Source: a virus
IMG/VR virus record: IMGVR_UViG_3300010300_000119
Span: 1 to 22,989 of that record
Length of the DNA stretch: 22,989 nucleotides
Strand: one strand, 5' to 3'
Shown one piece after another: positions 1 to 22,529 of the stretch. The notes beneath the pieces were generated by a model. It was not told the origin of the DNA. It saw nothing but the letters and a program-made list of their open reading frames with translations, and made no database searches. A program made the position numbers and the translations under genes. Within the stretch, counting starts at the first letter, position 1; each line of letters opens with the position of its first letter.

Positions 1-1
1 A

Positions 2-499
2 AACATAGATGGTGGAGCAGGAAGAGATGGTGCTATAGATTTAGGTGTTGCAGGTGCAAAATTCAAAGACCTCTACCTTTCAGGCGGTGCTTATCTAGGC
101 GGTACAGGTTCAGCAAACCATCTTGACGATTATGAAGAAGGTACTTGGACAGGAACTTTAACAGGAGGCACTTCAGCACCAACTACTGCTGTAACAAAAA
201 CAGGTTATTATACAAAAATAGGAAACATGGTAACTCTTTGGATTGAATTTAATAATGTAGATGTTACAGGTGCTTCTGGAACAGCAAAAATAACAGGACA
301 ACCTTTTAATCCAGCTGTTGGAAAATCTGCTGTTGGTGGTGGTTTTATGGGAAGAGCAGAATCAGATTTAATTGGTTCTTATATGACCTCTACAAGTGGT
401 GGAATACTTTGGGTTGATTATCAAGGAAATGGTGCAAATTATGCTACAACAGGTACTGGTACTTATGTACAAGCAACAATTACTTTTTCAGTTTCATAA
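2..499 (+). CDS. Phage tail fibre / receptor-binding protein, C-terminal part (5' truncated by window edge)
   Basis: The reading frame is open from base 2 to the TAA at 497-499, so the window catches the last 165 codons of a longer gene; the ATG at 227 is internal. The visible protein is rich in Gly, Thr and Ser. It contains a segment reading NHLDDYEEGTWTGTL, followed by a YYTKIGNMVTLWIEF strand. Both are typical of the C-terminal domains of tail-fibre and tail-spike proteins of marine phages, where a repeat-rich shaft ends in a small beta domain. The role would be host recognition at the virion surface. The next gene starts 48 bp downstream after a small hairpin. Family membership is from recalled motif similarity; the receptor is unknown. 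Confidence 0.7.
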   Translation, partial: NIDGGAGRDGAIDLGVAGAKFKDLYLSGGAYLGGTGSANHLDDYEEGTWTGTLTGGTSAPTTAVTKTGYYTKIGNMVTLWIEFNNVDVTGASGTAKITGQPFNPAVGKSAVGGGFMGRAESDLIGSYMTSTSGGILWVDYQGNGANYATTGTGTYVQATITFSVS

Positions 500-508
500 C
501 AACTAATA

Positions 509-528
509 TACCTAGTGGATTCTAGGTA
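509..528. other. Short hairpin between tail-fibre gene and next gene
   Basis: TACCTAG (509-515) and CTAGGTA (522-528) are perfect reverse complements around a 6-nt loop. No T-run follows, so this is not a classical intrinsic terminator. It could be a weak attenuator, an RNA-processing site or an mRNA 3'-end stabiliser. The AGGAG ribosome binding site of the next gene (536-540) lies just downstream. Confidence 0.4.
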
Positions 529-546
529 CGGACATAGGAGAAAAAA

Positions 547-840
547 ATGGCAATAACAAAAGAAATAATAGAAGATAAAATAGAAGTTGTAGGAGACTAC
601 AAAACTATACAGGTGCGAACAGCTACAGTCATCAAAGAAGATGGTGTAGAGCTTAGTAGGTCTTTTCATAGACACGCATTAGATTGTGTAAGCTCTGTAC
701 AAAACGATGACGATACTTGGACTCATACAGATACAGACGTATCAGGAGAGTCTACAGAGGTTCAAGGCATAGCTTCAGCCGTTTGGACAACAACAGTTAA
801 GAACGCTAAGAAAGCAGCTAACGAAGCTGCAGGAGTATAA
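547..840 (+). CDS. Small conserved-type phage protein, function unknown (97 aa)
   Basis: The gene starts at ATG 547 behind a good ribosome binding site (AGGAG at 536-540). The product is soluble and acidic, with no signal peptide or membrane segment. It has a central His-rich piece (SFHRHALDC) and an Ala/Lys-rich helical C-terminus (residues 85-97). It lies directly after the tail fibre and 2 bp before another small gene, a position often taken by tail-fibre assembly or accessory proteins in marine phages. No function can be assigned from sequence. Confidence 0.65.
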   Translation: MAITKEIIEDKIEVVGDYKTIQVRTATVIKEDGVELSRSFHRHALDCVSSVQNDDDTWTHTDTDVSGESTEVQGIASAVWTTTVKNAKKAANEAAGV

Positions 841-842
841 TA

Positions 843-1178
843 ATGGCAATAGAATGGACAATAACAAACACAGAGTACAACAACGACTCTGACAAAGGAA
901 TAGTACACGCTGCATGGCAATGTACAAATTCAGAAACAGTAGGTTCAGGCGATAGTGCAGTAGTGCATACAGGTACAGTATCAGGTATGGAGTCTTATAC
1001 TCCAGACGCTAGTGCTGACGGTTATGTAGCTTACGATAGTCTTACAGAAGCTAATCTAGTAGCTTGGGTAAAAGCAACATTAGGTTCAGAAAAAGTTACT
1101 GAAGTAGAAACTAAAGTAGCTGCTCAAATAACCAAGAGTAAAACTCCACCGACAGCGTGGGGAAAACCTTGGAGTTAA
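843..1178 (+). CDS. Small phage protein with WVKATLG-type C-terminal motif (111 aa)
   Basis: The start is ATG 843, 2 bp after the preceding stop (TAATAATG). The first half looks like a beta domain (MAIEWTITNTEY opening, many Ser/Thr/Gly). The second half is a helix carrying NLVAWVKATLGSEKVTEVE and ends in a Trp/Pro-rich tail (WGKPWS). This arrangement, a beta domain followed by a W-V-K-x-x-L-G helix and a terminal Pro-Trp, is recurrent in small phage proteins next to tail-fibre genes. The role is unknown. Association with tail fibres is inferred from position only. Confidence 0.65.
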   Translation: MAIEWTITNTEYNNDSDKGIVHAAWQCTNSETVGSGDSAVVHTGTVSGMESYTPDASADGYVAYDSLTEANLVAWVKATLGSEKVTEVETKVAAQITKSKTPPTAWGKPWS

Positions 1179-1226
1179 TTTAACCAAACACACCGACAAG
1201 TGTGCATAAAACCATAGGAGGATATT

Positions 1227-1469
1227 ATGGCCAATAAAGAAACTGTCAAAGAAGAAAACACCGTCACTATTGATGGGAACGAACTAAAAGAATCAGAACT
1301 AACTGAACAGCAAAAGTATTTTGCAAGTCAGATTCAAGAAGCAAGAGCAAAAAGAATGCAATTACAAAGACAAATGGACAGAAATACAGCTGTTATTAAT
1401 TCTTTTGAGTCTGCATTAGTAGAGACTACTAAAGAAATTGCAGAAGAAGTTTTATCTGAGGAAAAGTAA
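1227..1469 (+). CDS. Small coiled-coil phage protein (80 aa)
   Basis: ATG 1227 is preceded by a strong ribosome binding site (AGGAGG around 1217-1222). The product is highly charged. Residues 25-80 (QQKYFASQIQEARAKRMQLQ and onward) are predicted by eye to be a continuous helix or coiled coil. There is no signal peptide or membrane segment. Proteins of this kind, with an Asp/Glu-rich head and an N-terminal Gln-rich helix, are common and unnamed in phage genomes. A 48-bp gap precedes it and holds only a weak 5-bp hairpin. Confidence 0.65.
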   Translation: MANKETVKEENTVTIDGNELKESELTEQQKYFASQIQEARAKRMQLQRQMDRNTAVINSFESALVETTKEIAEEVLSEEK

Positions 1470-1470
1470 T

Positions 1471-1653
1471 ATGAACTTTATTAAAAATTTCTGGGATAAA
1501 TTTACTGGTACTGAAAGAGTTGAAGTAAGGGCAAGAAATAAAAAAGGCCATTACGTTGCAGACGATAAATCTACTCCTGATGTTAACGAAGCTTATACTA
1601 CCAAAAGAGTAAAAAAGAAAAAATCAAAAATAACAACTAATAATATAGGATAA
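1471..1653 (+). CDS. Small basic phage protein (60 aa)
   Basis: ATG 1471 was chosen over the upstream in-frame ATG at 1438. It immediately follows the preceding stop (TAAT-ATG), has the upstream GAGGAAAAG as ribosome binding site, and avoids a long overlap. The protein is strongly basic with a C-terminal Lys cluster (KRVKKKKSK, about residues 46-54), suggesting nucleic-acid contact or a disordered tail. The function is unknown. The next gene starts 2 bp after its stop. Confidence 0.55.
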   Translation: MNFIKNFWDKFTGTERVEVRARNKKGHYVADDKSTPDVNEAYTTKRVKKKKSKITTNNIG

Positions 1654-1655
1654 AA

Positions 1656-1838
1656 ATGGCTACTGTTAAAGATGCTTTAAATGCAATTGAATCACATGAA
1701 AAAGAATGTAAAGCTTTGTATAAAAGTATTGATAAAAGATTAGAAGATGGCTCAAAACGTTTTGATAAATTAGAAAATATGATTTGGGCTGTCTATCCTT
1801 TTATACTAGCAACGGTAATGTTATCTAGATTAATCTAA
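1656..1838 (+). CDS. Small C-terminally anchored membrane protein (60 aa), possible holin partner
   Basis: Residues 1-41 are charged and helical (HEKECKALYKSIDKRLEDGS and onward). Residues 42-59 form one hydrophobic segment (IWAVYPFILATVMLSRLI), giving a tail-anchored topology. The stop overlaps the next start by one base (TAATG at 1836-1840), so the two genes are probably translationally coupled and their products may act together. The next gene encodes an N-terminally anchored coiled-coil protein. A pair of small single-TM proteins is compatible with a holin/antiholin or pinholin-like role, but topology and position are the only evidence. Confidence 0.6.
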   Translation: MATVKDALNAIESHEKECKALYKSIDKRLEDGSKRFDKLENMIWAVYPFILATVMLSRLI

Positions 1839-2188
1839 TGGACTCTGTCGTCCAACTAATAAATGAAGTTGGTTTTCCAATAGCCGCAGCTATAGGGTTA
1901 GGTTTATTTATTTGGAAACTTATTAATAAAATTATTGACGGTATGGAAACCAAAGTAGACGTGCTTGATGAAAAAGTATCTGCCCAAATATCTGAAATAG
2001 AACAACGATTAGGTCAAAAACTAGATTCACAACATGGAATATTAGTAGCATTGATAGATAGAGTGCGTTCTGTAGACAATGAGATTATTAGACAAGACAC
2101 GCTTTTGAAGACTATACTTGGTGTACCACAATTGATGCACACCGATAGGTTAGCAAAGGCGGACAGAGATGACCAAAGAAAAGATTAA
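1838..2188 (+). CDS. Small membrane-anchored coiled-coil protein, holin-like (116 aa)
   Basis: One hydrophobic segment (about residues 10-32, GFPIAAAIGLGLFIWKLIN) is followed by a long amphipathic helix (about 36-90) and a charged tail (DRLAKADRDDQRKD). An N-terminal TM followed by a coiled coil is the layout of BhlA/UviB-type phage holin-like proteins, although similar small proteins exist with unknown roles. It overlaps its upstream partner by 1 bp and the csgF-like gene downstream by 20 bp in the +1 frame. It therefore forms the start of the envelope cassette transcript. Assignment as a holin is tentative. Confidence 0.6.
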   Translation: MDSVVQLINEVGFPIAAAIGLGLFIWKLINKIIDGMETKVDVLDEKVSAQISEIEQRLGQKLDSQHGILVALIDRVRSVDNEIIRQDTLLKTILGVPQLMHTDRLAKADRDDQRKD

Positions 2189-2711
2189 AAGAAAAGTAGG
2201 CAGACCAAGTAACGCAGAACTCAAGCGTAGAAAAGAAGAAGCTGAAAAAGATAAAATTCTATGGCTTGTTATGGCTGTAGGAATAGCACTAATTATAGGC
2301 ATATTTGTACAGAATCTTAAAGCAGACCAAATAGTTCATAAATTTAAGTCCCCTAGTTTTAACGGTATGGGTACCAGCTCACATTATCTTACGATTGAAA
2401 ACCAAGAGTTCTCAAGAAAATTAACCATTAAAGAAGAAATTAAAGCCTTGCAGGATGAAATAGAAAGAGAAAAAGAAAACTCTACCCTTGCAAGATTTAT
2501 GCGTAATCTTGAGTCAAGGGTATACGCAGAACTGTCAAGACAGCTAGTTAATAACCTCTTTGGTGAAACACCATCTGATTCAGGTACAATAACCTTAGAA
2601 GGAAACACCATAGAATATACAAGTGATGGTGTAACATTAACTCTTAAAATAACGGAAGCAGATGGAACGGTTACTGAAATTACAATACCTATCGGTACTT
2701 TTACTTTCTAG
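2169..2711 (+). CDS. csgF: CsgF-like curli assembly factor with cytoplasmic N-terminal extension
   Basis: CsgF caps the CsgG pore at the cell surface and couples curli secretion to nucleation. Residues about 53-66 (DQIVHKFKSPSFNG) match the start of mature E. coli CsgF (FQFRNPNFGG). This is followed by a helical middle and a region around LSRQLVNNLFG that matches the SQILGGLLSNI segment. The C-terminal beta part (GNTIEYTSDGVTLTLKITEA and onward, to TFTF) corresponds to the CsgF C-terminal beta domain. Unusually, about 29 charged residues precede the hydrophobic segment (30-47). They include KRKVGRPSNAELKRR, which resembles an AT-hook core. If the signal is cleaved, LKA-D at 52/53 is the likely site; otherwise it is an inner-membrane anchor. 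At 180 aa it is longer than E. coli CsgF (138 aa). Its last 50 bp overlap csgG. Confidence 0.82.
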   Translation: MTKEKIKRKVGRPSNAELKRRKEEAEKDKILWLVMAVGIALIIGIFVQNLKADQIVHKFKSPSFNGMGTSSHYLTIENQEFSRKLTIKEEIKALQDEIEREKENSTLARFMRNLESRVYAELSRQLVNNLFGETPSDSGTITLEGNTIEYTSDGVTLTLKITEADGTVTEITIPIGTFTF

Positions 2712-3492
2712 TTGTTCTATATTCAACCAGTTTGAAGATACGTACGAGAAAAGATTTAAGGCAAACGACGTAGTATCCATTCAAGACCTTCAATCTGTAC
2801 AATTAAAAAATGTAAACCTTCCAAAGGTAAGCCCAGTAGTTGCTGTATATCCAGCATCTTTTACGGACCAAACAGGTCAACGTAAAAGCAACAGCGAATT
2901 TGCTTTATTTAGTACAGCCTTAACTCAACAACCTAACGCACTTTTGATAAGAGCTTTAAAACATGCTGGAGACGGCAATTTTTTTAGAGTTGTAGAAAGA
3001 GTTGGTTTAGATAATCTTACTAAGGAAAGACAGCTTATAAGGTCAGCAAGAGAACAGTTTGCTAGTGAAGAAGATAAAAAAAAACAATTACAACCTTTAT
3101 TATTTGCAGGTGTATTAATGGAGGGAGCTGTAATATCTTACGAATCAAACTTAGAATCTGGTGGTATTGGAGCAAGATATTTAGGAATAGGAAATAGTAT
3201 TCAATACAGAGAAGATACTGTAACAATAAGTTTGCGTATGGTATCTGTAGCTACAGGTGAGGTTTTGCTAGAGGTTTTAAGTCAAAAAACTATATTTAGT
3301 TATGGCAAATCAGAGGATGTATTTAGGTTTATAGAAGCTGGAACTGAGTTAGTAGAAATAGAATTAGGTAACGCTAGAAACGAGTCATCAACAATAGCTT
3401 TGATGAAAACAATAGAAGGAGCTGTACTAGAATTAATAAAGCAAGGTTATACCAAAAAATATTGGGTTTTACAATCAGAAAATAAAGAGTAG
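2662..3492 (+). CDS. csgG: CsgG-like outer-membrane curli secretion pore lipoprotein
   Basis: CsgG forms a nonameric outer-membrane channel that exports curli subunits. The 276-residue protein aligns by eye along its length to E. coli CsgG (277 aa). Matches include VERVGLDNLTKERQLIR (E. coli LERQGLQNLLNERKIIR), YESNLESGGIGARYLGIG (YESNVKSGGVGARYFGIG), LRMVSVATGEVLLEV, and VFRFIEA. The signal peptide MERLLKLQYLSVLLLSSC has a lipobox with Cys18. Ser at +2 is compatible with outer-membrane sorting. The constriction loop differs: after TGQ it reads RKSNSEFALFSTA against FKPYPASNFSTA in E. coli, keeping the Phe (F83) but lacking the Tyr and Asn and being one residue longer. The signal peptide lies almost exactly within the csgF overlap. 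ATG 2662 is supported because it is what gives the lipobox. Confidence 0.93.
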   Translation: MERLLKLQYLSVLLLSSCSIFNQFEDTYEKRFKANDVVSIQDLQSVQLKNVNLPKVSPVVAVYPASFTDQTGQRKSNSEFALFSTALTQQPNALLIRALKHAGDGNFFRVVERVGLDNLTKERQLIRSAREQFASEEDKKKQLQPLLFAGVLMEGAVISYESNLESGGIGARYLGIGNSIQYREDTVTISLRMVSVATGEVLLEVLSQKTIFSYGKSEDVFRFIEAGTELVEIELGNARNESSTIALMKTIEGAVLELIKQGYTKKYWVLQSENKE

Positions 3493-3501
3493 AATATATA
3501 T

Positions 3502-4227
3502 ATGAAGAATAAACTTATAAGCTTAATTGCTGTTTTTTCTCTAGGAGTTACTGCAGCAGATAACGAAATTTACGTAGACCAGTCTGGTACTGGGGCTAAT
3601 ATAGACCTGGAACAATTAGGTATATCTAATATTATAGGTGGACTTAATTCAACATCAGGAAATCTTACAGCTTTTGATTTAGATGGTACTACTATGACAC
3701 TTGATATCAATATGATTGGTGCCACTAACAAGTTTCTTGGTGATATATTTGCAGATAATTTTACAGGTTTATACAACTTTACTGGTGGTACTAATACATT
3801 TACTATTCAAGTAGACCCAACAGACACATACAGTTCAGATGGTACAGACCAAAATGTAACTGTTACTGGTAGTAGTAATACATTTACTTTAAACCAAGGT
3901 ACAACTGCAATAGCAGCATCTCTTAATCTAGATTGGATTATTCAAGGCTCTAACAACACAGTAACATCAAACATAAATATTGATGGTGCTACAAACTATA
4001 TGGATATAGATGGTTCTGATAATACAGTAAATTATACTGGTACTGGTACTAATGCTTCTGCAGGTGGGTATTTTTGGTTAGACCATACAGGTGGTTCGAG
4101 AACTTTTAATATTCAACAACTGAGTACCCAAGATAATGACTGGCTTAAAATTATATCAATTGGCGGCAATGCTAGTTCTACTGTTTGCGTTATCCAAAAC
4201 GACCAAGGTACAAGCACAAGCTGTTAA
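3502..4227 (+). CDS. Secreted curlin-like repeat protein, candidate CsgG substrate
   Basis: A clean signal peptide (MKNKLISLIAVFSLGVTAA, cleaved about residue 19) precedes YVDQSGTGANIDLEQLGISN. This follows the curlin pattern of Q-x-G-x-x-N strand-loop-strand repeats. Downstream the protein is Gly/Asn/Thr/Asp-rich with recurring G-[ST/A]-x-N turns followed by alternating beta residues (residues 73-76, 96-98, 123-126, 149-152, 162-165, 171-174), as in a beta-solenoid. The repeats are degenerate and do not match E. coli CsgA closely. Two cysteines, C229 and C241, lie at the C-terminus. Directly following csgF and csgG, it is the obvious fibre subunit or exported substrate. The C-terminal 31 codons overlap the FecR gene. 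Amyloid formation is inference. Confidence 0.72.
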   Translation: MKNKLISLIAVFSLGVTAADNEIYVDQSGTGANIDLEQLGISNIIGGLNSTSGNLTAFDLDGTTMTLDINMIGATNKFLGDIFADNFTGLYNFTGGTNTFTIQVDPTDTYSSDGTDQNVTVTGSSNTFTLNQGTTAIAASLNLDWIIQGSNNTVTSNINIDGATNYMDIDGSDNTVNYTGTGTNASAGGYFWLDHTGGSRTFNIQQLSTQDNDWLKIISIGGNASSTVCVIQNDQGTSTSC

Positions 4228-5254
4228 TATAGGCGATATATCTGAACTAAATGGTTCGGCACAAATTGTAAGAAACAAACCACTAGATGCTACCTTAGAA
4301 TTTGCTATACAAAGCAATGATGAAGCTATTACATCTAATGGCAGGATGGCTATTACATTTTTAGATGATTCAATTGTAAAACTTACAGAACACTCACAAC
4401 TCTTAATAGATGAATATATCTATGACCCTGACCCATCCAAATCTAAAATGGCGCTTACCTTTGGTCTTGGAACAGCTAGATTTATTACAGGCAATTTAAA
4501 CCGAATAGATAAGCAAAACATTCAACTTAAAACACCTACAGCTAATATAGCTATTAGAGGTACAGACTTTACAGCAACGGTAGATGAATTAGGTCGTAGC
4601 CTTATAATATTATTACCAGATGCTCTAGGCCTATCTAGTGGCGAAATAATTGTAACTACAGCTATGGGGACTGTCACTCTTAACAAACCATATCAGGCAA
4701 CAACTGTTAGCGTGTTTGAATCAAAGCCAAGCAATCCAGTTATTTTAGATTTGACTTTGGATGTTATAGATAACATGCTAATTGTTACTCCACCTAAAAA
4801 AGAAGAGTCTGTTCAAGAAGAGGTATCTACCAAAAAACAAGAAAATATTTTAGATTTTAATGACCTAGATATAGATTATCTTGCAAAGGATTTTCTTGCA
4901 GCAGACGACTTAGAATTTACAGAGTTAGATATTAACTATCTTGATGTTAATTACTTAGAAGATTTATTAAATGTTTTAGATGCTCTTGCTATAGCAGAAG
5001 ATGAGGATGCTTTAGCTCAAGCAACAAGCACTCAAGTATCAGGAACGCTTTTGGGCAAGGACCCAGACACCCAAATAACTACTATTATTACAGGTCAAAT
5101 TGTTAGCTTAAGAAGAAGTGTAAACGAAACAGTACAATTAGATTTAAACAGCAACGACTCATATACAGTTATCTTTATACAAGATGGTATTTCTAATATA
5201 ATAAAAGTAAATGGAGGAAGTGATAGTGTTATTACTATTACTCAAAGTGATTAA
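4136..5254 (+). CDS. Secreted FecR-domain protein with acidic repeats and curlin-like C-terminal motif
   Basis: The signal peptide MTGLKLYQLAAMLVLLFALS continues to KTTKVQA, with likely cleavage after Ala27, giving a periplasmic or exported protein. Residues about 32-155 form a FecR domain: GDISELNGSAQIVR opening, DEAITSNGRMAITFLDDS core, then KTPTANIAIRGTDFTATVD at 132-150, the hallmark ending of this family. Residues 240-282 hold acidic near-repeats of the form D/E-L-D-I-D/N-Y-L. The C-terminus (about 345-370) contains QDGISNIIKV, sharing GISNII with the curlin-like protein encoded upstream. FecR domains typically relay envelope signals and, in bacteria, are often adjacent to CHASE2 cyclases, as here (stop/start overlap TAATG with the cyclase). 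It lacks the cytoplasmic N-terminus of classical sigma regulators. Confidence 0.82.
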   Translation: MTGLKLYQLAAMLVLLFALSKTTKVQAQAVNIGDISELNGSAQIVRNKPLDATLEFAIQSNDEAITSNGRMAITFLDDSIVKLTEHSQLLIDEYIYDPDPSKSKMALTFGLGTARFITGNLNRIDKQNIQLKTPTANIAIRGTDFTATVDELGRSLIILLPDALGLSSGEIIVTTAMGTVTLNKPYQATTVSVFESKPSNPVILDLTLDVIDNMLIVTPPKKEESVQEEVSTKKQENILDFNDLDIDYLAKDFLAADDLEFTELDINYLDVNYLEDLLNVLDALAIAEDEDALAQATSTQVSGTLLGKDPDTQITTIITGQIVSLRRSVNETVQLDLNSNDSYTVIFIQDGISNIIKVNGGSDSVITITQSD

Positions 5255-6999
5255 TGAAACGACTATTATTACCTATACTTATAATACTTTCTTTGCCGTT
5301 AATTTTTCAAAGCACGCCTACAGAAATACTTAAGTTAAAAATATTTGATACATTTGTAACAACGCCAGAACCTTCTGGTAATTTTGTAATTCTTAATATA
5401 ACCGAAGAAGATGTTGCTAAAGAAGGAGGGTGGCCTTTACCAAGAAGAACACTTGCTCAAATACAAGTTGACCTTATTAATCAAGGAGCTATCGGAGTGG
5501 GGTGGGTTATAAGTTTTCCTCAAGCAGATAGAATGGGAGGAGATGAAGTCTTTGCTACAACGCTGGGATATGCTCCATCTGTTTTAGCAATGTTTGAAAC
5601 TCCTAACGGTAAATATCCAAAAACTACTGGAACAGTTATTAAGGGAAACAATCCTGGAGGAATGTTAAGTCAAGGCGTAGTACAAAATATTAAAATTTTG
5701 CAAGACAACTCATTGCAAGGAATTGCAACTGCACCTACCGATATAGATAACTTAGTCAGAAGAATACCATTATTATTAAAAACTCCAGATGGATATGTTC
5801 CTGCTTTTGGTACAGAAGTATTAAAAGCACTAACAGGAGCAAAAACTTACATTATCACTACAAATAATAATGGTATACAAGAGATATCAGTCAGAGGAAT
5901 ACCGCCAATCAAAACAGATAGCCTTGGTCGTAAATGGATAAGCTGGGTAGATACACCAGAAACCAATTTACAAGAAATGAATGTTGCTGGCAAGTTTGTT
6001 TTTGTTGGCGTAACTGCTAATGGAATTATGCCTCAAATTGCAACTCCGTCTGGATTATTAGAGCCACATAAAATTCAAGCAGCATTATCTGAGTCAATTC
6101 TTATAGAAAACTCTCCAATAATTCCAGATTTTGCTTTAGCTTTGGAAATTTTAATTTTTGGAATTTTTGTCACTCTGACGTGGCTTGCAATCAATTATCT
6201 TGGTATAACTAAGGGCGTAAGTATAGCTGTAATTTTACTCTTAACTACAGCCCTCTCAGGCGTTTTTAGCATTCAAAAGGGTTATTTAATAGATTTTTCT
6301 TGGACTTTTGTATCTCAGTTCATAACTGCAGCTATTGCCTTCTATATAAACTTTAGAAAACAGTTTAAATTGCGTCAACAAATTAAAAAACAATTTGAAC
6401 ATTACCTTGACCCAAGACAGGTTAAACAACTCCAAGATAATCCTGAGTTGTTAAAACTAGGTGGAGAAAAAAGAATATGTACTTTTTTATTTACAGATGT
6501 CAGGGGCTTTACAAATTTATCTGAAAAACTAAAACCAGAAGAAGTAACTGACATAATGAACAAAGTTCTTACCGTACAAGTGGAATGTATCCAGGCACAT
6601 GGAGGAATGGTAGATAAATTTATAGGCGACGCATGTATGGCCATCTTTAACGCTCCTTTGGATTTAGATGAACATGAACAACGTGCTGTTGCCTGCGCTA
6701 GAGATATGAGAACAGCAATTCGCATGTTACAAAAAGAATTACCAGAACCAATTGCAATAGGTATAGGTGTAAATACAGGAGAAGCTATAATTGGCAATAT
6801 GGGTTCTGATACAAGATTTGACTATTCAGCTATAGGAGATGCAGTTAATACTGCAGCGAGACTTGAGTCAGCTACCAAAGAAGCAGGTGTTGATTTATTA
6901 ATTGGAGAGTCTACTCGTAAAAAAGTACCAGAAGCTACGTTTTGTAAAAAAATGTACGTTAAGGGTAAAAAAGACGCACTCAAAGTGTATACTATTTAA
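5254..6999 (+). CDS. CHASE2 - transmembrane - class III adenylate/guanylate cyclase
   Basis: A membrane sensor cyclase that would convert ATP (or GTP) to cAMP (or cGMP). Domains in order: N-terminal TM (1-18); periplasmic CHASE2 domain (about 25-290, with LKIFDTF and GGWPLPRRTLAQ motifs); three TM helices (about 293-317, 321-341, 350-366); a cytoplasmic linker helix; and a class III catalytic domain (about 405-581). Catalytic features are intact: metal-binding D415 (FTDVRGFT) and D459 (KFIGDA), substrate Lys K455, and transition-state N532 and R536 in DAVNTAARLES. The second purine-selecting position appears to be S525 (FDYSAIGD), so ATP is likelier than GTP but unproven. The start overlaps the FecR stop by one base. 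Class III cyclases of this architecture are ordinary in bacteria but unexpected in a phage structural/lysis block. Confidence 0.93.
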   Translation: MKRLLLPILIILSLPLIFQSTPTEILKLKIFDTFVTTPEPSGNFVILNITEEDVAKEGGWPLPRRTLAQIQVDLINQGAIGVGWVISFPQADRMGGDEVFATTLGYAPSVLAMFETPNGKYPKTTGTVIKGNNPGGMLSQGVVQNIKILQDNSLQGIATAPTDIDNLVRRIPLLLKTPDGYVPAFGTEVLKALTGAKTYIITTNNNGIQEISVRGIPPIKTDSLGRKWISWVDTPETNLQEMNVAGKFVFVGVTANGIMPQIATPSGLLEPHKIQAALSESILIENSPIIPDFALALEILIFGIFVTLTWLAINYLGITKGVSIAVILLLTTALSGVFSIQKGYLIDFSWTFVSQFITAAIAFYINFRKQFKLRQQIKKQFEHYLDPRQVKQLQDNPELLKLGGEKRICTFLFTDVRGFTNLSEKLKPEEVTDIMNKVLTVQVECIQAHGGMVDKFIGDACMAIFNAPLDLDEHEQRAVACARDMRTAIRMLQKELPEPIAIGIGVNTGEAIIGNMGSDTRFDYSAIGDAVNTAARLESATKEAGVDLLIGESTRKKVPEATFCKKMYVKGKKDALKVYTI

Positions 7000-7000
7000 G

Positions 7001-7396
7001 ATGAGCAAAGTGTTAATTGGAATTATAGTAGTAATGGGATTGGCAACTTATCTTCTTTGGAATCAAAATTCCAAACTATCTGCTCTTAACCAAGCATTTG
7101 AAATAAGAAACCAGGAACAAAAATTAGCTATAGAATCATTGCAAAATGATTTTACCTTGCAAACAGATAGTTTATTAGAGATTCAAAGTCGTAACCAAGA
7201 AATACAACAAGAGATGTCAAGATATCTTGACATATTTAAACGTCACGATTTAACTAGGTTAGCAGCAGCTAAACCTGGACTAATAGAACCAAGAGTAAAT
7301 AAAGGAACCAAAGATGTATTTGATAGCATTGAAGAAGATAGTCGTAACATCGACAGTCTTGATGATGGCTTGCAGTTGCAGTCTGATACCAAGTAA
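7001..7396 (+). CDS. i-spanin (Rz-like inner-membrane lysis protein)
   Basis: ATG 7001 follows the cyclase TAA by one base. The upstream in-frame ATG at 6902 would bury an extra basic segment inside the cyclase gene and push the TM away from the N-terminus. The 131-aa product has an N-terminal TM (about 4-20, VLIGIIVVMGLATYLLW), a long coiled coil (about 22-75), then FKRHDLTRLAAAKPGLIEPR and VFDSIEEDS, a segment recurrent in spanins of marine phages. I-spanins sit in the inner membrane and fuse it with the outer membrane together with an o-spanin at the final step of lysis. The o-spanin gene overlaps its 3' end by 83 bp in the +1 frame, the classical Rz/Rz1-like arrangement. Confidence 0.8.
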   Translation: MSKVLIGIIVVMGLATYLLWNQNSKLSALNQAFEIRNQEQKLAIESLQNDFTLQTDSLLEIQSRNQEIQQEMSRYLDIFKRHDLTRLAAAKPGLIEPRVNKGTKDVFDSIEEDSRNIDSLDDGLQLQSDTK

Positions 7397-7688
7397 ACAA
7401 CAGGTTGAAGTAATATCTAAGCCTATAGAGAGAACTATAGTGCAACCTATAATGCCAAGGGAAATAGATTTAAAAGACCCCTATTGGTATGTAGTATCAA
7501 ATAAAAACATTGATGAATTTTTAGTACAAGTAGAAAAAGACCAAGGACAAATGGTTTTTGTGGCTATGTCAGTAACAGATTACGAGCTTATGGCTTACAA
7601 CATGCAAGAATTAAAACGATATATTAATGAACTTACAGAAGTTGTTGTTTATTATAGAAAAGTAACAGTTAGCAAAAAAGATAATTAA
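7314..7688 (+). CDS. o-spanin (outer-membrane lipoprotein, Rz1-like role)
   Basis: The signal peptide MYLIALKKIVVTSTVLMMAC ends in a lipobox-like MMACSC, with Cys20 or Cys22 as the lipid-attachment site. The mature protein is not a short proline-rich Rz1 but a domain of about 100 residues (DLKDPYWYVVSNKNIDEFL, then FVAMSVTDYELMAYNMQELK and VVVYYRK) of the type paired with this i-spanin class in marine phages. Its first 83 bp overlap the i-spanin gene in the +1 frame, and that overlap encodes the entire signal peptide. It would be anchored in the outer membrane and contact the i-spanin coiled coil across the periplasm. Confidence 0.75.
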   Translation: MYLIALKKIVVTSTVLMMACSCSLIPSKQQVEVISKPIERTIVQPIMPREIDLKDPYWYVVSNKNIDEFLVQVEKDQGQMVFVAMSVTDYELMAYNMQELKRYINELTEVVVYYRKVTVSKKDN

Positions 7689-7731
7689 TCTGTTAAAATC
7701 AAGAAACCATTAATATTCAAGGGAGGATAAT

Positions 7732-7896
7732 ATGGGAATGATAGGAGAATGGCTAGGAATAGTAACTGGTGTTGTTTGCGCAGCATCTATTATTTGTTCG
7801 GTTACACCAACCCCAAAAGATGATGCATTAATAGGAAAACTTTACAAGATTCTAGAAATTGCAGCATTAAATATAGGTAAAGCAAAGGAGAAGTAG
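7732..7896 (+). CDS. Small hydrophobic phage protein, putative holin (54 aa)
   Basis: ATG 7732 has a strong ribosome binding site (GGGAGGA, 7721-7727) and the frame closes with TAG at 7894-7896. The product begins MGMIGEWLGIVTGVVCAASI and has one hydrophobic stretch (about 4-23). It continues ICSVTPTPKDDALIGKLYKI and ends LNIGKAKEK. The TPTPKDD-x-L-x-GK-x-Y-K-x-LE pattern is recurrent in small proteins next to endolysin genes of many phages. Its location between the spanins and the lysozyme supports a holin or lysis-regulator role, since the lysozyme has no export signal. The stop is directly followed by the nuclease start (TAGATG). It is short, so easily missed. Confidence 0.75.
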   Translation: MGMIGEWLGIVTGVVCAASIICSVTPTPKDDALIGKLYKILEIAALNIGKAKEK

Positions 7897-8277
7897 ATGG
7901 CTAAAGCACCAGATGCTTTTGTTTACAACGCAACCTTAGAGCGAATAGTCGATGGGGACACCTTTGATTGTTCGCTTGACCTTGGTTTTGATGTAAAACT
8001 ACACAAGCAAAGAGTACGCCTTCACGGTATTGATACTCCAGAATCACGCACCAGAGATTTAGCAGAAAAAAAACTAGGTCTTGCAGCAAAAGAAAGATTA
8101 AAAGAACTTTGCAAGGGTAAATTTAAAATTAAATCATTAGGAAAAGGTAAATATGGCAGAATACTTGGCATCCCTTATACAGAAGATGGCAAAGATATTT
8201 GCCAAATGCTCATCAAAGAAGGCCACGCAGTTGAATACCACGGCGGCAAAAAAGCAAAAGTATGGGGAGATTACTAA
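7897..8277 (+). CDS. Staphylococcal-nuclease-like (thermonuclease, SNase family) enzyme
   Basis: This family hydrolyses DNA and RNA with Ca2+. The 126-residue protein keeps the catalytic set by alignment to staphylococcal nuclease: D19-G-D21-T (metal site), R41, D46-T47-P-E49 (RVRLHGIDTPES; equivalents of R35, D40, T41, E43) and R88 in KGKYGRILG (equivalent of R87). There is no signal peptide, so it is cytoplasmic until lysis. AAAGGAG (7884-7890) inside the preceding gene serves as ribosome binding site. It could help degrade host DNA, reduce viscosity at lysis or recycle nucleotides. Its place inside a lysis cassette favours a late role, but the choice is not decided by sequence. Confidence 0.9.
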   Translation: MAKAPDAFVYNATLERIVDGDTFDCSLDLGFDVKLHKQRVRLHGIDTPESRTRDLAEKKLGLAAKERLKELCKGKFKIKSLGKGKYGRILGIPYTEDGKDICQMLIKEGHAVEYHGGKKAKVWGDY

Positions 8278-8278
8278 C

Positions 8279-8722
8279 ATGAATATATCTCAAGAAGGTT
8301 TATCTCTTATTAAAAAGTTTGAAGGTTGCGAGCTTGAAGCATATAAATGTGCAGCAGGAGTTTTGACAATAGGATATGGCTCTACCAAAGGCGTTAAAGA
8401 AGGCGATACTATTACTCAAGAAGAAGCAGATAAGTTACTTTTACATGAAATGGAAGAGTATGAAGGTTATATAAAAGATGCAGTAAATGTCGATTTACAC
8501 CAAAATCAATTTGATGCTTTAGTTAGTTGGGTGTTTAACTTAGGTCCAGCTAATTTAAAAGCATCTACTATGTTAAAAGTTTTAAACAATAAAGAATATG
8601 ATGACATTCCAGCTCAAATAAAACGTTGGAATAAAGCAGGTGGTAAGGTTTTACAAGGACTTATCAGAAGAAGAGAAGCAGAAGCCCTTTTGTTTGAAGG
8701 CAAAGAATGGCATGAGGTATAA
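8279..8722 (+). CDS. GH24 phage lysozyme (muramidase endolysin)
   Basis: ATG 8279 follows the nuclease stop by one base and has GGGGAG (about 8263-8268) at good spacing. The in-frame ATG at 8153 would overlap the nuclease by 125 bp and precedes the normal lysozyme N-terminus, so it is rejected. The 147-aa protein starts MNISQEGLSLIKKFEG and shows the GH24 catalytic arrangement E-8aa-C-5aa-T: E15, C24, T30 (KKFEGCELEAYKCAAGVLTI). Cys replaces the Asp of T4 lysozyme, as in other members of this family. The C-terminal part includes FDALVSWVFNLG and GLIRRREAEALLFEG, both typical. It cleaves peptidoglycan. With no signal sequence or SAR domain, it needs a holin for release. Confidence 0.95.
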   Translation: MNISQEGLSLIKKFEGCELEAYKCAAGVLTIGYGSTKGVKEGDTITQEEADKLLLHEMEEYEGYIKDAVNVDLHQNQFDALVSWVFNLGPANLKASTMLKVLNNKEYDDIPAQIKRWNKAGGKVLQGLIRRREAEALLFEGKEWHEV

Positions 8723-8725
8723 CTA

Positions 8726-10582
8726 ATGCCTTTAAGCAAGATTTTATTTAAGCCAGGTATCAACAGAGAAGGTACTGAATACGACAATACAGGCGGTTGG
8801 TTTGACGTAAATCTTGTACGTTTTAGAAAAGGTAGACCAGAAAAGTTTGGCGGTTGGTCAAAAGACAGCTCAAATACTTATTTAGGAACTGCTAGAGCTT
8901 TACATGCTTGGACCTCTTTAGGAGGTACAAAGTATTTAGGATTAGGAACTACTTGGAAATATTATATTAGAGAAGGAGACAGTTACTCAGATGTTACCCC
9001 CATACGAAAGACTACAACTGATGGTGTTGTTTTTTCTGCTACTAATGGCAGCTCTACTATAACAGCTACTGATAATCTTCATGGCTCAGTTATAAATGAT
9101 TTTGTCACCTTTACAGGCGCTGTTTCTTTAGGTGGATTAATAACAGCAGAAGTATTAAATCAAGAATATCAAATAACATCTGTTACCACTAATACATACA
9201 CTTTTGTAGCTAAAGATACAGATGGAAATGAGGTTATAGCAAACAGCTCTGATACTGGAAATGGAGGCTCTGGAGTAGATGGAATCTACCAAGTTAATGT
9301 AGGTTTAGATGTTTATATTACTGGTACTGGTTGGAGTTCTGGTACTTGGGGTGAAGGAACTTTTGGCTCTACTACAGCTTTATCTGCTACTAACCAGCTA
9401 AGACTTTGGACACATGACCACTTTGGCGAAAACCTCATAATAAACCCTAGAGCTGGCGGTATATATAGATGGGTAGAGAATAATGGCCTTACAACAAGAG
9501 CTGTAGACCTTTCTACTGTTTCTGGGGCTAACTTAGTACCAACAGTAGGCTTACAAGTTATTACCTCCGAGAAAGATAGGCATTTAATTGTATTGGGTTC
9601 AGACCCAGTATCAGGTGGAGCAAGGACAGGCGTTATAGACCCGATGCTTATATCCTTTAGCGACCAAGAAAATGACTTGGAGTTCCAACCTTTGATTACC
9701 AATACTGCTGGAGACTTAAGACTTTCATCTGGTTCTTCTATTATTGGGGCTACAAAATCTAGACAGGAAATACTAATATGGACTGATACTGCTTTATACA
9801 GTATGCAGTTTGTTGGGCCACCTTTTACATTTGCGGTTAACCTTATTAACGAGGGTACTGGTCTTATAGGACCAAAGGCTGTTATTACTTCAGCTCAGTC
9901 TATCTATTGGATGTCTTCAACAAACTTTTACGCTTATACAGGTAGCGTACAAAAGATACCTTGTAGCGTTCATAATTACGTATATGCGGATATAAACCTA
10001 AGTCAATCATTTAAAATACATGCGTTTACTATTACTGAAAAGTCTGAAGTTGGTTGGTTCTATTGCTCAGGAAGTGCAACAGAGATAGACAGATATGTTA
10101 TTTATAACTACGAAGACCAGGTTTGGTATTACGGCCAATTACAAAGACATGCTTGGCTTGATAGTGGTATTGAAGATTATCCTAGAGCTACTTACAACGG
10201 TTACTTATTTGAACAAGAAGATGGGTTTAACGATGATGGCAGTCCTATGACTAACGTATTTATAGAAAGTTCAGACTTTGAGGTAGGAGAAGGGGAGCAG
10301 TTTGCTTACGTGCAAAGAATGTTCCCAGATTTAAAATTCTTAGCTAATTCAGACTCAGGTAAAGTAAATCTTGTTTTAAAAACTAGAAATAATCCTGGAG
10401 AATCCCTTTCAACCAATTCTATATCTTCTGTAGGCTCATCAACTGGGCAAGTCAGTCTAAGAGCGAGAAGTCGTCAGGCTGTATTTAGAGTAGAGTCAGA
10501 TGATGATTCAGACGGTAACGATAACGTAGGTTGGAGACTAGGAGCTACTAGGTTAGATATTAAACCAGACGGCAGAAGATAA
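8726..10582 (+). CDS. Virion tail/stabilisation protein, P22 gp10-like (618 aa)
   Basis: A large beta-rich protein without signal peptide. The opening KILFKPGINREGTEYDNTGG and the following VNLVRFRKGRPEKFGGW are characteristic of a podovirus structural family annotated as phage stabilisation or tail-hub proteins. Residues about 95-165 hold an inserted small beta domain (VVFSATNGSSTITATDNLHG, then DFVTFTGAVSLGG and EYQITSVTTNTYTF) common in phage virion proteins. The remainder looks like a beta-propeller: repeated blade-like strands such as WTDTALYSMQFVG, IYWMSSTNFYAY and RYVIYNYEDQVWYYG. It would close the head-tail junction. It abuts the lysozyme gene (3 bp gap) and overlaps the next start by one base (TAATG). 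The gp10 equivalence is from motif memory and is less certain than its virion role. Confidence 0.68.
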   Translation: MPLSKILFKPGINREGTEYDNTGGWFDVNLVRFRKGRPEKFGGWSKDSSNTYLGTARALHAWTSLGGTKYLGLGTTWKYYIREGDSYSDVTPIRKTTTDGVVFSATNGSSTITATDNLHGSVINDFVTFTGAVSLGGLITAEVLNQEYQITSVTTNTYTFVAKDTDGNEVIANSSDTGNGGSGVDGIYQVNVGLDVYITGTGWSSGTWGEGTFGSTTALSATNQLRLWTHDHFGENLIINPRAGGIYRWVENNGLTTRAVDLSTVSGANLVPTVGLQVITSEKDRHLIVLGSDPVSGGARTGVIDPMLISFSDQENDLEFQPLITNTAGDLRLSSGSSIIGATKSRQEILIWTDTALYSMQFVGPPFTFAVNLINEGTGLIGPKAVITSAQSIYWMSSTNFYAYTGSVQKIPCSVHNYVYADINLSQSFKIHAFTITEKSEVGWFYCSGSATEIDRYVIYNYEDQVWYYGQLQRHAWLDSGIEDYPRATYNGYLFEQEDGFNDDGSPMTNVFIESSDFEVGEGEQFAYVQRMFPDLKFLANSDSGKVNLVLKTRNNPGESLSTNSISSVGSSTGQVSLRARSRQAVFRVESDDDSDGNDNVGWRLGATRLDIKPDGRR

Positions 10583-10920
10583 TGGCAAAGTTACTAGAAA
10601 CTAGCCTTCCGCTTGCTCAGGGAGAGATATCTCCTGAAATTTTTAATAGATTAGTTAGGATTCTTGAGTTAAACTTAGGACAGTTCGACCCAAATCGAAC
10701 GCCGCAGTTCAACGAAACAGAAATTGCGCAATTAAACTTTTTAGAAGGTGATGTAATCTGGAATACTTCTCAAGGAGTGTTGCAAGTTTATATAGGGAAC
10801 AGTTGGACTCAGCTTCATACACCTAACTCACCCAATAATGGTTTTAAGGCTACAGCTTCTTTAGGTGCTGTTTCTGTTATAACGAAAGGTGATATAGCAG
10901 TAAATATAACAGTAGCTTAA
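10582..10920 (+). CDS. Small virion-associated protein with fibre-like repeat (112 aa)
   Basis: The start codon overlaps the stop of the preceding structural gene (TAATG, 10580-10584), indicating coupling. The N-terminus (ETSLPLAQGEISPEIFNRLV) is helical. The middle contains GDVIWNTSQGVLQVYIGNSW, a short beta motif (GDVIWNT-x-x-G-x-L-x-VY-x-G) seen in phage tail-fibre and appendage proteins. There is no membrane segment. It probably forms part of, or attaches to, the tail or head-closure complex encoded next door. The exact role is unknown. Confidence 0.6.
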   Translation: MAKLLETSLPLAQGEISPEIFNRLVRILELNLGQFDPNRTPQFNETEIAQLNFLEGDVIWNTSQGVLQVYIGNSWTQLHTPNSPNNGFKATASLGAVSVITKGDIAVNITVA

Positions 10921-10938
10921 AATTTAGGATATTTTTAT

Positions 10939-11679
10939 ATGTTTGCAAAACAAAAGATACAGGAAGAATCATACAAGCTTAAAAACTTATTGCTTGGATT
11001 TCCTTCTGATTGGTTTGTTAACAAAGATACTTTACAAAAATCAAAAGAATCTATTCCTAATATTGTAGATTTTTACAAAAGCCAGGGTACAGGCAATCCA
11101 GAAAAGCTACCATTACAAAATATTATTCAAGAACCTTTAAAGGATGTTTATACAATTCCTTTGTTTTCTGACAAGTTTTGTAAGGTATTGCTAGACGAAA
11201 TAGACAATATGCAAAAAGAGTTTGCATTTGTACCAAATCCAGATGAAGACAAGTTAAGACAGATACCAGAGATAGTTCTTAACGAAAAATGTCCAGAACT
11301 ATACGATTCGTTGATGCAGGTAGTTCAATCACTAATTAACCCAATACTATTAACTATATGGAATCGTCACGTTACAGGCGGAAACATACAGATAGCTAAC
11401 TACAATTTAAAAGATAAAAAGCAAGGAGCTTGGCATCACGACGCCAGTTCAGACGTTAGTATTGTAGTCCCTTTAAATACAGGCGATTACAAGGGTGGAG
11501 GAACAGAATTTTTAAATAGAGGAGTCGTAGAGCCATTACCTACAGGTAGCGGTTTGATATTTCCAAGTTATACACACATGCACAGAGGACTAGCAGTAAA
11601 GGAAGGAGATAGATATTTGTTGGTTTTTTGGTTAACATCTATAGATGAAGATATTAACAGCGAAGAAAATAAAGGGTAA
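10939..11679 (+). CDS. 2-oxoglutarate/Fe(II)-dependent oxygenase (prolyl-hydroxylase-like fold)
   Basis: The 246-residue protein carries the jelly-roll oxygenase signature. The iron ligands are H166-x-D168 (GAWHHDASSDVS) and distal H215 (THMHRGLAV). R225 (GDRYLLVFW), ten residues after the distal His, is placed to bind the 2-oxoglutarate carboxylate. VPLNTGDYKGGGTEFL is the usual strand before the distal His. Phages carry such enzymes widely; proposed roles include hydroxylation of proteins or nucleobases, but the substrate cannot be read from sequence. It lies between virion genes with 18 and 9 bp gaps, so it is expressed late with them, which suggests a virion-protein or host-envelope substrate rather than a replication role. 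That last step is inference. Confidence 0.85.
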   Translation: MFAKQKIQEESYKLKNLLLGFPSDWFVNKDTLQKSKESIPNIVDFYKSQGTGNPEKLPLQNIIQEPLKDVYTIPLFSDKFCKVLLDEIDNMQKEFAFVPNPDEDKLRQIPEIVLNEKCPELYDSLMQVVQSLINPILLTIWNRHVTGGNIQIANYNLKDKKQGAWHHDASSDVSIVVPLNTGDYKGGGTEFLNRGVVEPLPTGSGLIFPSYTHMHRGLAVKEGDRYLLVFWLTSIDEDINSEENKG

Positions 11680-11688
11680 AATTGTAAT

Positions 11689-13203
11689 ATGAATAGAATA
11701 GACAACAGCGGACAGGGATTAGCAAAGCTAGGACGTGACGAAGATAAGTATATGGCTCACGTTGCGCCAAATGAAATGGTCGTACCACCTGTTATATCTC
11801 CAGAGACAAGAGCGCTTATAGAAGCGGAAATGAAAGCAGTAGGGCTTGACCCAAATGAATATACTGTTGGTGAAGGAATGTCTATCAATCCAATTACAGG
11901 TATGCCTGAGTTTGGTTGGTTAAAGAAAACATTTAAGTCTGTAAAGAAAGTTGTTAAAAAGGCTGCTCCTGTTATAGGTGTAGCAAGTATGTTTATCCCA
12001 GGACTAGGGCCAGCTATTAGCGGAGCTTTAGGTGGATTGGGTAGCAGCGTTGTAACAGGTCTTAGCAAAATACCAGGAATCGGCGGAGCTTTATCATCTG
12101 GCGCATCTGCTCTTGGTAGAGGTATCGGCGCTTTAACAGGTATGGGTGGTGGAGCTGCAGGAGCAACAGGCGGAGCTACTAGCGGTAATTTATTTTCTAG
12201 AATCAGAAGCGGTATAGGAAGTTATTTTAATCCAGCAGAAGGAGCAACAGGAATCTTTGGCGGGAAAATTGGTCCAAGCATTAGAAGTGGTATAGGTGGT
12301 TTATTTAGTGGAGGTATGGGTAATATACCTGGTATGCCAGGAGGTCAACAAGAGGGCGGATTTATGAACGCTTCTTACACTCCTAGCGCTTCAGATATAG
12401 ATGATTTGTTTAATAGCGGCAAATTAAAATATATTGAAGGCTATGATGGATTGCCTGGACATTTAGAAAGCGCAGATGGCCAAAAGTTTAATAGTGTTGA
12501 TGAATATTTTGCATCTCAACAATCTTCTGGAGGATTGGGGAGCCTTTTAGGTAATTTCTTTGGTAGTGGCAAGTCACCTTTACAATTTTTAAGTTCTAAG
12601 TTATTACCTCAAGGTATTGAAGATGCTTTAGGTACAGGTCCTGGAGGCGGAGGTCTATTTGGCGGAGGAAGTCAAGGAGGCGGAGGTCTTGGAGGAATGC
12701 TTGGAGGCAATATGGGAGCAGCAGGTATAGCCGCTCTACTAGGTAAAACAGTTTACGACGCTGCCAAAGAAAGACAAGGTGGATTAGCTGCAACCCCAGC
12801 AGTAACAATGGATGCTCTTGGTAGATACTCTTTAGCTAACGCTTTAGGTACTGGAGGAACAAGAGAAGAGTTTGGTTTAGGACCAGCTCCATCTTCTTTA
12901 AAATTTAATATGGGTGGCCCAGTTAACAGACAATATTTTAATCAAGGTGGCGCAGCAATTAAAGAACAAGACATGCGTGATGGTGGTGAATCAGCTGGTC
13001 CTGGAACAGGAACTTCAGATGATATACCAGCGATGTTAAGTGATGGTGAGTTTGTAATGACCGCTAAAGCTACACGTGGCGCAGGTGCTTTTGGTATGAA
13101 CAAAACAAAATCAGGTATAGAGCTTATCAAAGGTGGTAAAGCTTCTAGAGAAAAAGGCGTAGAAAACATGCGCGAACTTATGAACATTTTTGAGGCAATA
13201 TAA
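11689..13203 (+). CDS. Gly-rich virion protein with amphipathic N-terminal segment (504 aa)
   Basis: The N-terminal motif AHVAPNEMVVPPVISPETR (about residues 23-41) and the C-terminal region DDIPAMLSDGEFVMTAKATR followed by GGKASREKGVENMRELM recur in structural proteins of marine podoviruses. Between them lie a basic amphipathic stretch (WLKKTFKSVKKVVKKAAPVI), a hydrophobic Gly/Ala/Ile region (about 95-160) and long Gly-rich linkers (about 275-345). This is compatible with a protein ejected with or around the DNA, or with an assembly scaffold. No enzymatic motif is visible. It overlaps the next start by one base (TAATG). The virion role is inferred from family resemblance and gene order. Confidence 0.62.
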   Translation: MNRIDNSGQGLAKLGRDEDKYMAHVAPNEMVVPPVISPETRALIEAEMKAVGLDPNEYTVGEGMSINPITGMPEFGWLKKTFKSVKKVVKKAAPVIGVASMFIPGLGPAISGALGGLGSSVVTGLSKIPGIGGALSSGASALGRGIGALTGMGGGAAGATGGATSGNLFSRIRSGIGSYFNPAEGATGIFGGKIGPSIRSGIGGLFSGGMGNIPGMPGGQQEGGFMNASYTPSASDIDDLFNSGKLKYIEGYDGLPGHLESADGQKFNSVDEYFASQQSSGGLGSLLGNFFGSGKSPLQFLSSKLLPQGIEDALGTGPGGGGLFGGGSQGGGGLGGMLGGNMGAAGIAALLGKTVYDAAKERQGGLAATPAVTMDALGRYSLANALGTGGTREEFGLGPAPSSLKFNMGGPVNRQYFNQGGAAIKEQDMRDGGESAGPGTGTSDDIPAMLSDGEFVMTAKATRGAGAFGMNKTKSGIELIKGGKASREKGVENMRELMNIFEAI

Positions 13204-14546: not shown

Positions 14547-14547
14547 T

Positions 14548-19913: not shown

Positions 19914-20392
19914 CTCTTTTTATTATAAGTTAAACCCATTTCTTCTCTATCAAATCCTAGCGGGTGTTCTGATAGACAAGTCATTTCATCTTTACTTAAG
20001 TGAACGTATGGCTCTGAGTCTTCTTCGTAAATAGGCTCTGCTATCGTACCGAATCTAACGTCATACTCTTTGCCTGCTTTCCAAGTATGTGAGTAAACGC
20101 TATCAGTCATAGCAAATACCAGGACAAAAGGATGGCCAGTAGCTAAAGACAAAGCTGCACCCATTCTTAATTTAGAGGTGCTAAGTAATAAAGTGTCATA
20201 CCTATCTATACCGAAACTACGACATTTAACTTCTAGCCAAAAGCAAGAGTCACTACTTTCGCACCAGTAATCTAGTCCGTAAGATACTGGTAGCTTGTTG
20301 CACCTAACATCCCACAATCCTTCTATAAAACCAGCTACACGCTCCTCGCGTTTCTGGTCGCTTATTGTTTCCATCTTTGGTTTTGGATTCAT
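19910..20392 (-). CDS. PD-(D/E)XK-type nuclease-like protein (160 aa)
   Basis: The start at 20392 has a strong ribosome binding site on the minus strand (AAAGGAG, 8-10 bp upstream) and the gene follows the primase by 11 bp. The core LPVSYGLDYWCESSDSCFWL-EVKCR places D41 and E54-V-K56 in the D-x(n)-E-x-K arrangement of the restriction-endonuclease-like fold. TLLLSTSKLRMGAALS and HPFVLVFAMTD follow, as expected for the later helix and strand. Candidates are a Holliday-junction resolvase-like or VRR-like endonuclease, or a recombination/processing exonuclease. Its place after the primase suggests DNA replication or repair. The C-terminal 30 residues are unassigned. The gene overlaps the 3' end of the convergent + strand gene by 4 bp. 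Confidence 0.6.
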   Translation of the reverse strand: MNPKPKMETISDQKREERVAGFIEGLWDVRCNKLPVSYGLDYWCESSDSCFWLEVKCRSFGIDRYDTLLLSTSKLRMGAALSLATGHPFVLVFAMTDSVYSHTWKAGKEYDVRFGTIAEPIYEEDSEPYVHLSKDEMTCLSEHPLGFDREEMGLTYNKKS

Positions 20393-20403
20393 ATTCCACT
20401 CCT

Positions 20404-22524: not shown

Positions 22525-22529
22525 TTCTG

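Follow-up and report, generated by a model that had tools for sequence, protein, structure and literature searches.

A phage-borne curli cassette that ends in a FecR-domain protein and a CHASE2-type nucleotide cyclase

The viral record IMGVR_UViG_3300010300_000119 (IMG/VR; 22,989 bp, analysed whole and referred to here as the window) raises the question of why a phage should carry, in its late-gene run, a gene for a FecR-domain protein followed directly by a gene for a CHASE2-type class III nucleotide cyclase. A first interpretation, made from the sequence without database searches (the sequence-only reading), described the two as a stand-alone signalling pair that was unusual in a phage. Judged by gene content and order, the pair is instead the end of a six-gene phage-borne curli cassette, encoding a protein with a single transmembrane (TM) segment, CsgF, CsgG, a curlin-like protein, the FecR-domain protein and the cyclase. 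CsgF and CsgG were first sighted in such phages by Zaragoza-Solas et al. (2020; PMC7029224), and a type VIII secretion system (T8SS)/curli cluster was then described in HTVC023P-type podoviruses and pelagimyoviruses, with genes for a ‘histidine kinase’, CsgF, CsgG, CsgA/B, FecR, often a second CsgA/B, and an adenylate cyclase (AC); this cluster was reported to be conserved, expressed and globally distributed, and FecR and the cyclase lie outside canonical curli operons (Wittmers et al., 2022; PMC9599517). The cluster, FecR and ‘adenylate cyclase’ included, is thus already known, and the window is a further member of a family that is widespread in ocean phages. The present analysis adds the CHASE2 architecture of the cyclase (CHASE2 is not mentioned in the main text of PMC9599517), its conserved active site, the purifying selection acting on it, the linkage statistics, the presence of relatives in at least 598 contigs and the missing receptor in SAR11.

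The pair is not rare among marine phages, since a search with the window cyclase found relatives in at least 598 viral contigs. Among the 80 loci kept from these, and where the contig was long enough, the cyclase was accompanied by FecR in 56 of 57 loci, which bears out the pairing for which a survey of other viral genomes had been proposed, by the curlin-like protein in 44/44, by CsgG in 35/35, by CsgF in 25/25 and by the single-TM protein in 22/22. Loci were also anchored on CsgG, to avoid selecting on the cyclase, with an HTVC008M-type and a window-type query; the best 80 loci were taken for each query, so that the sample is one of close relatives and may include nearly identical contigs. 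In this set, the curlin-like protein was found in 133/133 loci, CsgF in 142/142, the single-TM protein in 137/137, FecR in 111/111 (counting loci with enough sequence 3' of CsgG) and the cyclase in 67/68. The two queries gave similar pictures (HTVC008M-type and window-type, respectively: FecR, 41/41 and 70/70; cyclase, 19/20 and 48/48; upstream single-TM protein, 74/74 and 63/63), and the only locus lacking the cyclase (L225, from 10571 onward) has, some 6 kb 3' of fecR, a gene for a further small curlin-like protein. The linkage of FecR and the cyclase to CsgG is near-obligate, and the cassette is also present in the cultured complete phages HTVC008M and Melnitz.

CHASE2-cyclases are carried by Alphaproteobacteria (relatives in 155 of 289 genomes, E ≤ 1e-40), and host DNA misassembled beside phage genes, which the sequence-only reading had named as the finding that would undo it, was considered. 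Its probability is close to nil: the same cassette and neighbours recur in many independent viral contigs and in HTVC008M and Melnitz, the GC content of the cassette is 34.5%, against 37.3% for the rest, with a similar third-position GC, and even the best bacterial cyclase matches are far weaker than the phage ones. FecR and CHASE2-cyclase genes had been said to be neighbours in many bacteria; around the 20 best alphaproteobacterial cyclase loci, a FecR gene was found at six (a lower bound, given the shortness of several contigs and a FecR profile derived from phage proteins) and CsgG or CsgF at none. Bacterial pairs of this kind lacking curli genes imply that in the phage cassette a secretion system has been combined with a pre-existing sensor pair, and by gene content the cassette looks like a FecR/CHASE2-cyclase pair united with a curli system.

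The phage cyclase is complete, with an intact catalytic centre, and is apparently active, as had been claimed from its sequence. CHASE2 spans residues 12–305 (89.9 bits) and the Guanylate_cyc domain residues 409–579; profile searches for these two domains and for FecR, proposed earlier as a check, all gave matches. A hydropathy scan revealed a hydrophobic segment at residues 4–22 and a hydrophobic block at residues 295–341, after CHASE2; this fits a CHASE2–multi-TM layout but does not fix the number of TM segments at the three of the sequence-only reading. The catalytic set comprises the metal-binding residues D415 and D459, the transition-state residues N532 and R536, K455, and S525 at the second base-selecting position; apart from S525, these are the five residues listed earlier, all of which are present. 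The closest solved structures are those of bacterial cyclases (6fht, 2w01, 3r5g, 1wc1). Class IIIb cyclases have a threonine or serine at the second base-selecting position, as the partner of the ATP-selecting lysine. Lys455 and Ser/Thr525 fit a base pocket of the bacterial adenylate-cyclase type, with cyclic AMP (cAMP) as the predicted product.

In an alignment of 79 full-length homologues and the window cyclase, D415, K455, D459 and R536 were conserved in 80/80 and N532 in 79/80, and position 525 was occupied by Ser in 66 sequences, Thr in 13 and Asp in one. The cyclase of Melnitz (L003 7917–9968) differs at two active-site positions, the transition-state Asn being replaced by Ser and the base-selecting residue being Asp, and is extended at its C-terminus; it may be impaired or altered. 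A second, CsgG-anchored set of 89 homologues contained no changed catalytic residue where the position was covered; the two sets overlap slightly, together comprising about 160 homologues, and neither contained a cut-short open reading frame (ORF). The median pairwise ratio of non-synonymous to synonymous substitution rates (dN/dS) was about 0.21 and similar for the CHASE2 and catalytic domains, indicating that the sensor has been retained as well as the enzyme. The cyclase is under purifying selection.

The FecR profile PF04773 matched the window protein with 37.6 bits (cut-off 24) and was matched by all 29 members of the FecR family, and the protein is probably exported, given its signal-peptide-like N-terminus. 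The stop/start overlap noted earlier between the two genes is borne out by the junction gatTAATGaaa, in which the stop codon TAA (5252–5254) and the ATG (5254–5256) share one base. At its other end, fecR overlaps the curlin-like gene by its first 92 nt (4136–4227), such that the FecR signal peptide is read, in a different frame, from the end of the curlin-like gene; this overlap is equally long in L011, L018 and L078, and shorter than 30 nt in Melnitz. Neither a FecI sigma factor nor a FecA receptor was found among the window proteins scanned, and iron regulation should not, therefore, be inferred from the name FecR. A curlin-like repeat perceived by eye at the FecR C-terminus (QxGxxN...ITITQ, in most podo-type members, 22/29) was provisionally rejected, as a shuffled sequence outscored every real curlin with the segment profile; Curlin_rpt matched none of the 29 family members.

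Table 1. Features of the window, with coordinates, strand and principal evidence. E, E-value.
Feature	Coordinates	Strand	Evidence and remarks
Single-TM, coiled-coil-like protein, cassette head	1838..2188	+	116 aa; phrog_18771, E 2e-16; weak phrog_4898 holin match, E 7e-5
CsgF, curli assembly component	2169..2711	+	PF10614, E 5.6e-16 (above cut-off)
CsgG, curli outer-membrane secretion pore	2662..3492	+	PF03783, E 2.6e-46 (above cut-off)
Secreted curlin-like repeat protein	3502..4227	+	33% to HTVC008M protein annotated CsgB
FecR-domain protein, signal peptide	4136..5254	+	372 aa; PF04773, E 3.2e-9
CHASE2 + TM + class III nucleotide cyclase	5254..6999	+	581 aa; PF05226, E 2.6e-25; PF00211, E 4.2e-20
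Probable i-spanin	7001..7396	+	ATG one base past cyclase stop; N-terminal TM
Rz-like o-spanin	7314..7688	+	phrog_812, E 3.7e-12
Phage lysozyme/endolysin	8153..8722	+	PF00959, E 2.2e-48
PrimPol-DUF3987 gene with Cro-like gene	19910–22865	–	Counterpart at L109 4295–6782

Four cassette genes lie directly 5' of the pair (1838–4227; Table 1). CsgG matches the solved chains 4uv2/4uv3/3x2r (E about 2e-43). The conserved part of CsgF is preceded by a basic extension at the N-terminus and by a TM-like segment (residues 30–48); CsgF may therefore be anchored in a membrane, or its translation may begin further downstream. As in the csg operons of E. coli, CsgG and CsgF are recognizable, with CsgG matching the solved E. 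coli chains, whereas FecR and the cyclase are added and no CsgE is seen: the CsgE periplasmic gate had no match among the window proteins scanned, and it is likewise absent from the pelagiphage cluster (PMC9599517). The product of 3502–4227 is probably a fibre subunit of the CsgA/B type, judging from its sequence. Its Curlin_rpt score was 8.1 bits (cut-off 20.7), with weak matches in 14 of 29 members of the curlin-like family (best E 8.6e-6). Its structural model is an all-beta repeat (pLDDT 78.7, pTM 0.76); a fold search of the PDB with this model returned nothing at E ≤ 0.001, but the list was rich in beta-helices and included the CsgA fibril 8enq and FapC at non-significant E-values.

Gene content and order in the window are those of the pelagiphage T8SS cluster (PMC9599517), with two differences. 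The FecR and cyclase genes are not separated by a second curlin gene, and the position of the ‘histidine kinase’ is taken by the 116-aa single-TM protein, which had no Pfam match to a histidine kinase domain up to E 1; given this and the shortness of the protein, the published label for the cassette head looks doubtful. Equivalents of this protein were found at L002 3126–3407 (HTVC008M, 93 aa), L003 3210–3488 (Melnitz) and L107 1916–2263 (minus strand). HTVC008M (KC465899) has orthologues in the same order as the window, including a cyclase annotated as ‘adenylate/guanylyl cyclase’ that is 34.7% identical over 96%, but it is a myovirus and has an additional gene between FecR and the cyclase (L002 6583–7908), encoding a PA14 domain and Curlin_rpt repeats (E 5e-8). 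The second curlin gene of Melnitz (L003 6885–7901) exceeds the Curlin_rpt cut-off, although csgA and csgB were reported to be lacking in this phage (PMC9004378).

The nearest experimental precedent for the sensor arm is provided by CyaD1, CyaD2 and CyaK of Sinorhizobium meliloti, CHASE2 cyclases that raise cAMP levels once a protein signal has been perceived via the outer-membrane beta-barrel NsrA (PMC13001267). CyaD1 becomes constitutively active after removal of CHASE2, indicating that CHASE2 can restrain such cyclases, and a FecR-domain gene, smc02177, is present in the cyaD1/clr region (PMC5498481). This system resembles the window in its CHASE2-type membrane cyclase, its FecR-domain gene in the region and an outer-membrane protein upstream in the pathway; it differs in being bacterial and symbiosis-related, in having a CRP-family receptor, Clr, and in that no curli genes have been described. 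The BiofilmReg operon of Burkholderia (PMC5192318), encoding a LysM-FecR protein, a CHASE2 histidine kinase and a response regulator, is similar in that the FecR gene adjoins a CHASE2 sensor gene, with a link to biofilms, but its output is a histidine kinase and it contains no curli genes.

With gene order, the intact catalytic centre, purifying selection and the near-obligate linkage of FecR and the cyclase to CsgG all evident from the sequences, we lean, by a little, towards regarding the FecR/CHASE2-cyclase pair as an integral part of a mobile phage curli cassette, serving as its signalling arm from envelope to cytosol. During infection, the curlin-like subunit would be exported by CsgG/CsgF; in the periplasm, the Sec-exported FecR protein might inform the CHASE2 domain of the cyclase, which sits in the inner membrane, about the condition of the secretion pore, fibre or envelope; the cytoplasmic domains of the cyclase would then dimerize and convert ATP into cAMP, which, through some receptor, could match the phage programme, or the state of the infected cell, to the production of fibres. 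Several points weigh against such a signalling arm. The curlin assignment of 3502–4227 is a family resemblance, with no significant direct match. The AlphaFold2 model of FecR was too poor to be usable (pLDDT 41.7, pTM 0.22), leaving no interface to examine. The gene smc02177 is dispensable for signal perception in Sinorhizobium (PMC5498481), weakening the idea of FecR as the sensor input. Finally, no cAMP receptor was found: the cyclic nucleotide-binding domain PF00027 is scarce in Pelagibacteraceae (9 of 147 genomes, six by weak matches only), and it was absent from the complete genomes of HTVC008M and Melnitz and from ten large cassette-bearing viral contigs.

This scarcity also bears on host takeover, in which a late rise in cAMP would reprogramme host transcription or metabolism via CRP-type receptors, much as the sequence-only reading had suggested in speaking of raised host cAMP and exploited cyclic-nucleotide responses. 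The cyclase is complete, cyclic nucleotide-binding domains are a common feature of many bacteria (10 of the 14 control genomes contained PF00027), and the window phage could have a CRP-bearing host. However, the best-studied relatives infect Pelagibacteraceae, and ribosomal protein S13, used as a control, was found in 127 of the same 147 genomes, indicating that the search works. Class III cyclases above cut-off were detected in only two of the 147, both within this phage cassette, and CsgG was found in the same two genomes and no others. L084 and L105 are full-cassette phage contigs binned with Pelagibacteraceae cells (one titled Candidatus Pelagibacter MED605), and such contigs are liable to be mistaken for evidence of host cyclases and host CsgG. 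The census covered class III cyclases and PF00027 in Pelagibacteraceae. Raising host cAMP so as to act via CRP thus fails for SAR11, the host group of HTVC008M, as no receptor is known there, unless the receptor has another fold; if the window phage has a non-SAR11 host, this route is possible. Host takeover would also leave the near-obligate curli linkage unexplained, and we consider it unlikely.

A bolder form of the signalling-arm proposal, which we put forward tentatively, is that a self-contained envelope-to-cytosol cAMP circuit, wired to the phage secretion system, is installed in hosts without cAMP signalling of their own, with an unrecognized phage or host protein as the receptor; the phage would then bring to the cell a second messenger foreign to it. 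The present comparison sharpens what was a vague annotation (‘AC, FecR implicated in T8SS’): phages retain a conserved, apparently active cyclase although class III cyclases and CRP-type receptors both seem to be missing from their hosts. Three testable answers are an unfamiliar type of receptor, a product other than cAMP, or hosts different from those assumed. Phages are known to interfere with cyclic-nucleotide-based defence, and the cyclase might be a decoy or countermeasure of this sort; its membrane-bound, periplasm-sensing architecture and its curli linkage do not fit such a role, no defence-related neighbour was noticed, and we judge it very improbable.

The genes flanking the pair are lysis and virion genes, according to domain scans of the window proteins. 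Downstream from the cyclase come the probable i-spanin, the Rz-like o-spanin, a nuclease, the lysozyme and a virion stabilization protein, and the curli cassette of the window phage thus adjoins its lysis genes. It could be that the cassette, with its holin-like single-TM protein and CsgG pore, acts as an envelope sensor that sets the time of lysis, with cAMP as one element of the clock. The position of the window cassette, between a gene with a holin match (phrog_4898) and the spanins and lysozyme, is consistent with this, as is the presence of a similar lysozyme no more than 3.5 kb downstream in 24 of 44 cyclase-anchored loci, and a pinholin or gated-pore role in lysis has been proposed for CsgG by the authors describing Melnitz (PMC9004378). 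Nevertheless, the holin match is weak, the other 20 loci have no similar lysozyme nearby, and the cassettes of HTVC008M and Melnitz adjoin baseplate/tail genes rather than lysozyme. These varied surroundings indicate that the cassette does not depend on the lysis context but forms a unit by itself, and its use as a lysis timer seems to us quite unlikely.

Nearly every long ORF at positions 1–19,913 of the window is on the plus strand, and neighbouring ORFs lie a short distance apart or overlap slightly. The virion genes of this lineage, examined via a 41-kb relative, are related to those of HTVC023P, DSL-LC04 and CRP-902 (major capsid protein, 58–68%; portal, 41–48%), the values for HTVC023P being 68% and 48%, respectively. 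The PrimPol gene of the lineage matches CRP-902 and has no counterpart in HTVC023P, whereas the HTVC023P helicase was found neither in the window (a fragment) nor in its 41-kb relative, but in two contigs of 61–63 kb bearing the same cassette. On this sequence evidence, the PrimPol module in a lineage with an HTVC023P-like capsid and portal is a replication module other than that of HTVC023P. No near-identical phage records were found. As clues to the host, tRNA genes were absent from the window and its relatives, and the PrimPol gene had no match in 297 Pelagibacteraceae genomes, which is uninformative. Membership of metagenome-assembled genomes was not used, because the relatives occur in those of Pelagibacter, Marinimicrobia and Flavobacteriaceae, a pattern resembling phage contigs binned with cells. 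A promoter scan gave 32 sites, against 30.3 in shuffled sequences, and thus no excess, whereas nine terminator-like sites were counted at positions 1–9000, where 4.3 (sd 2.0) were expected from shuffles.

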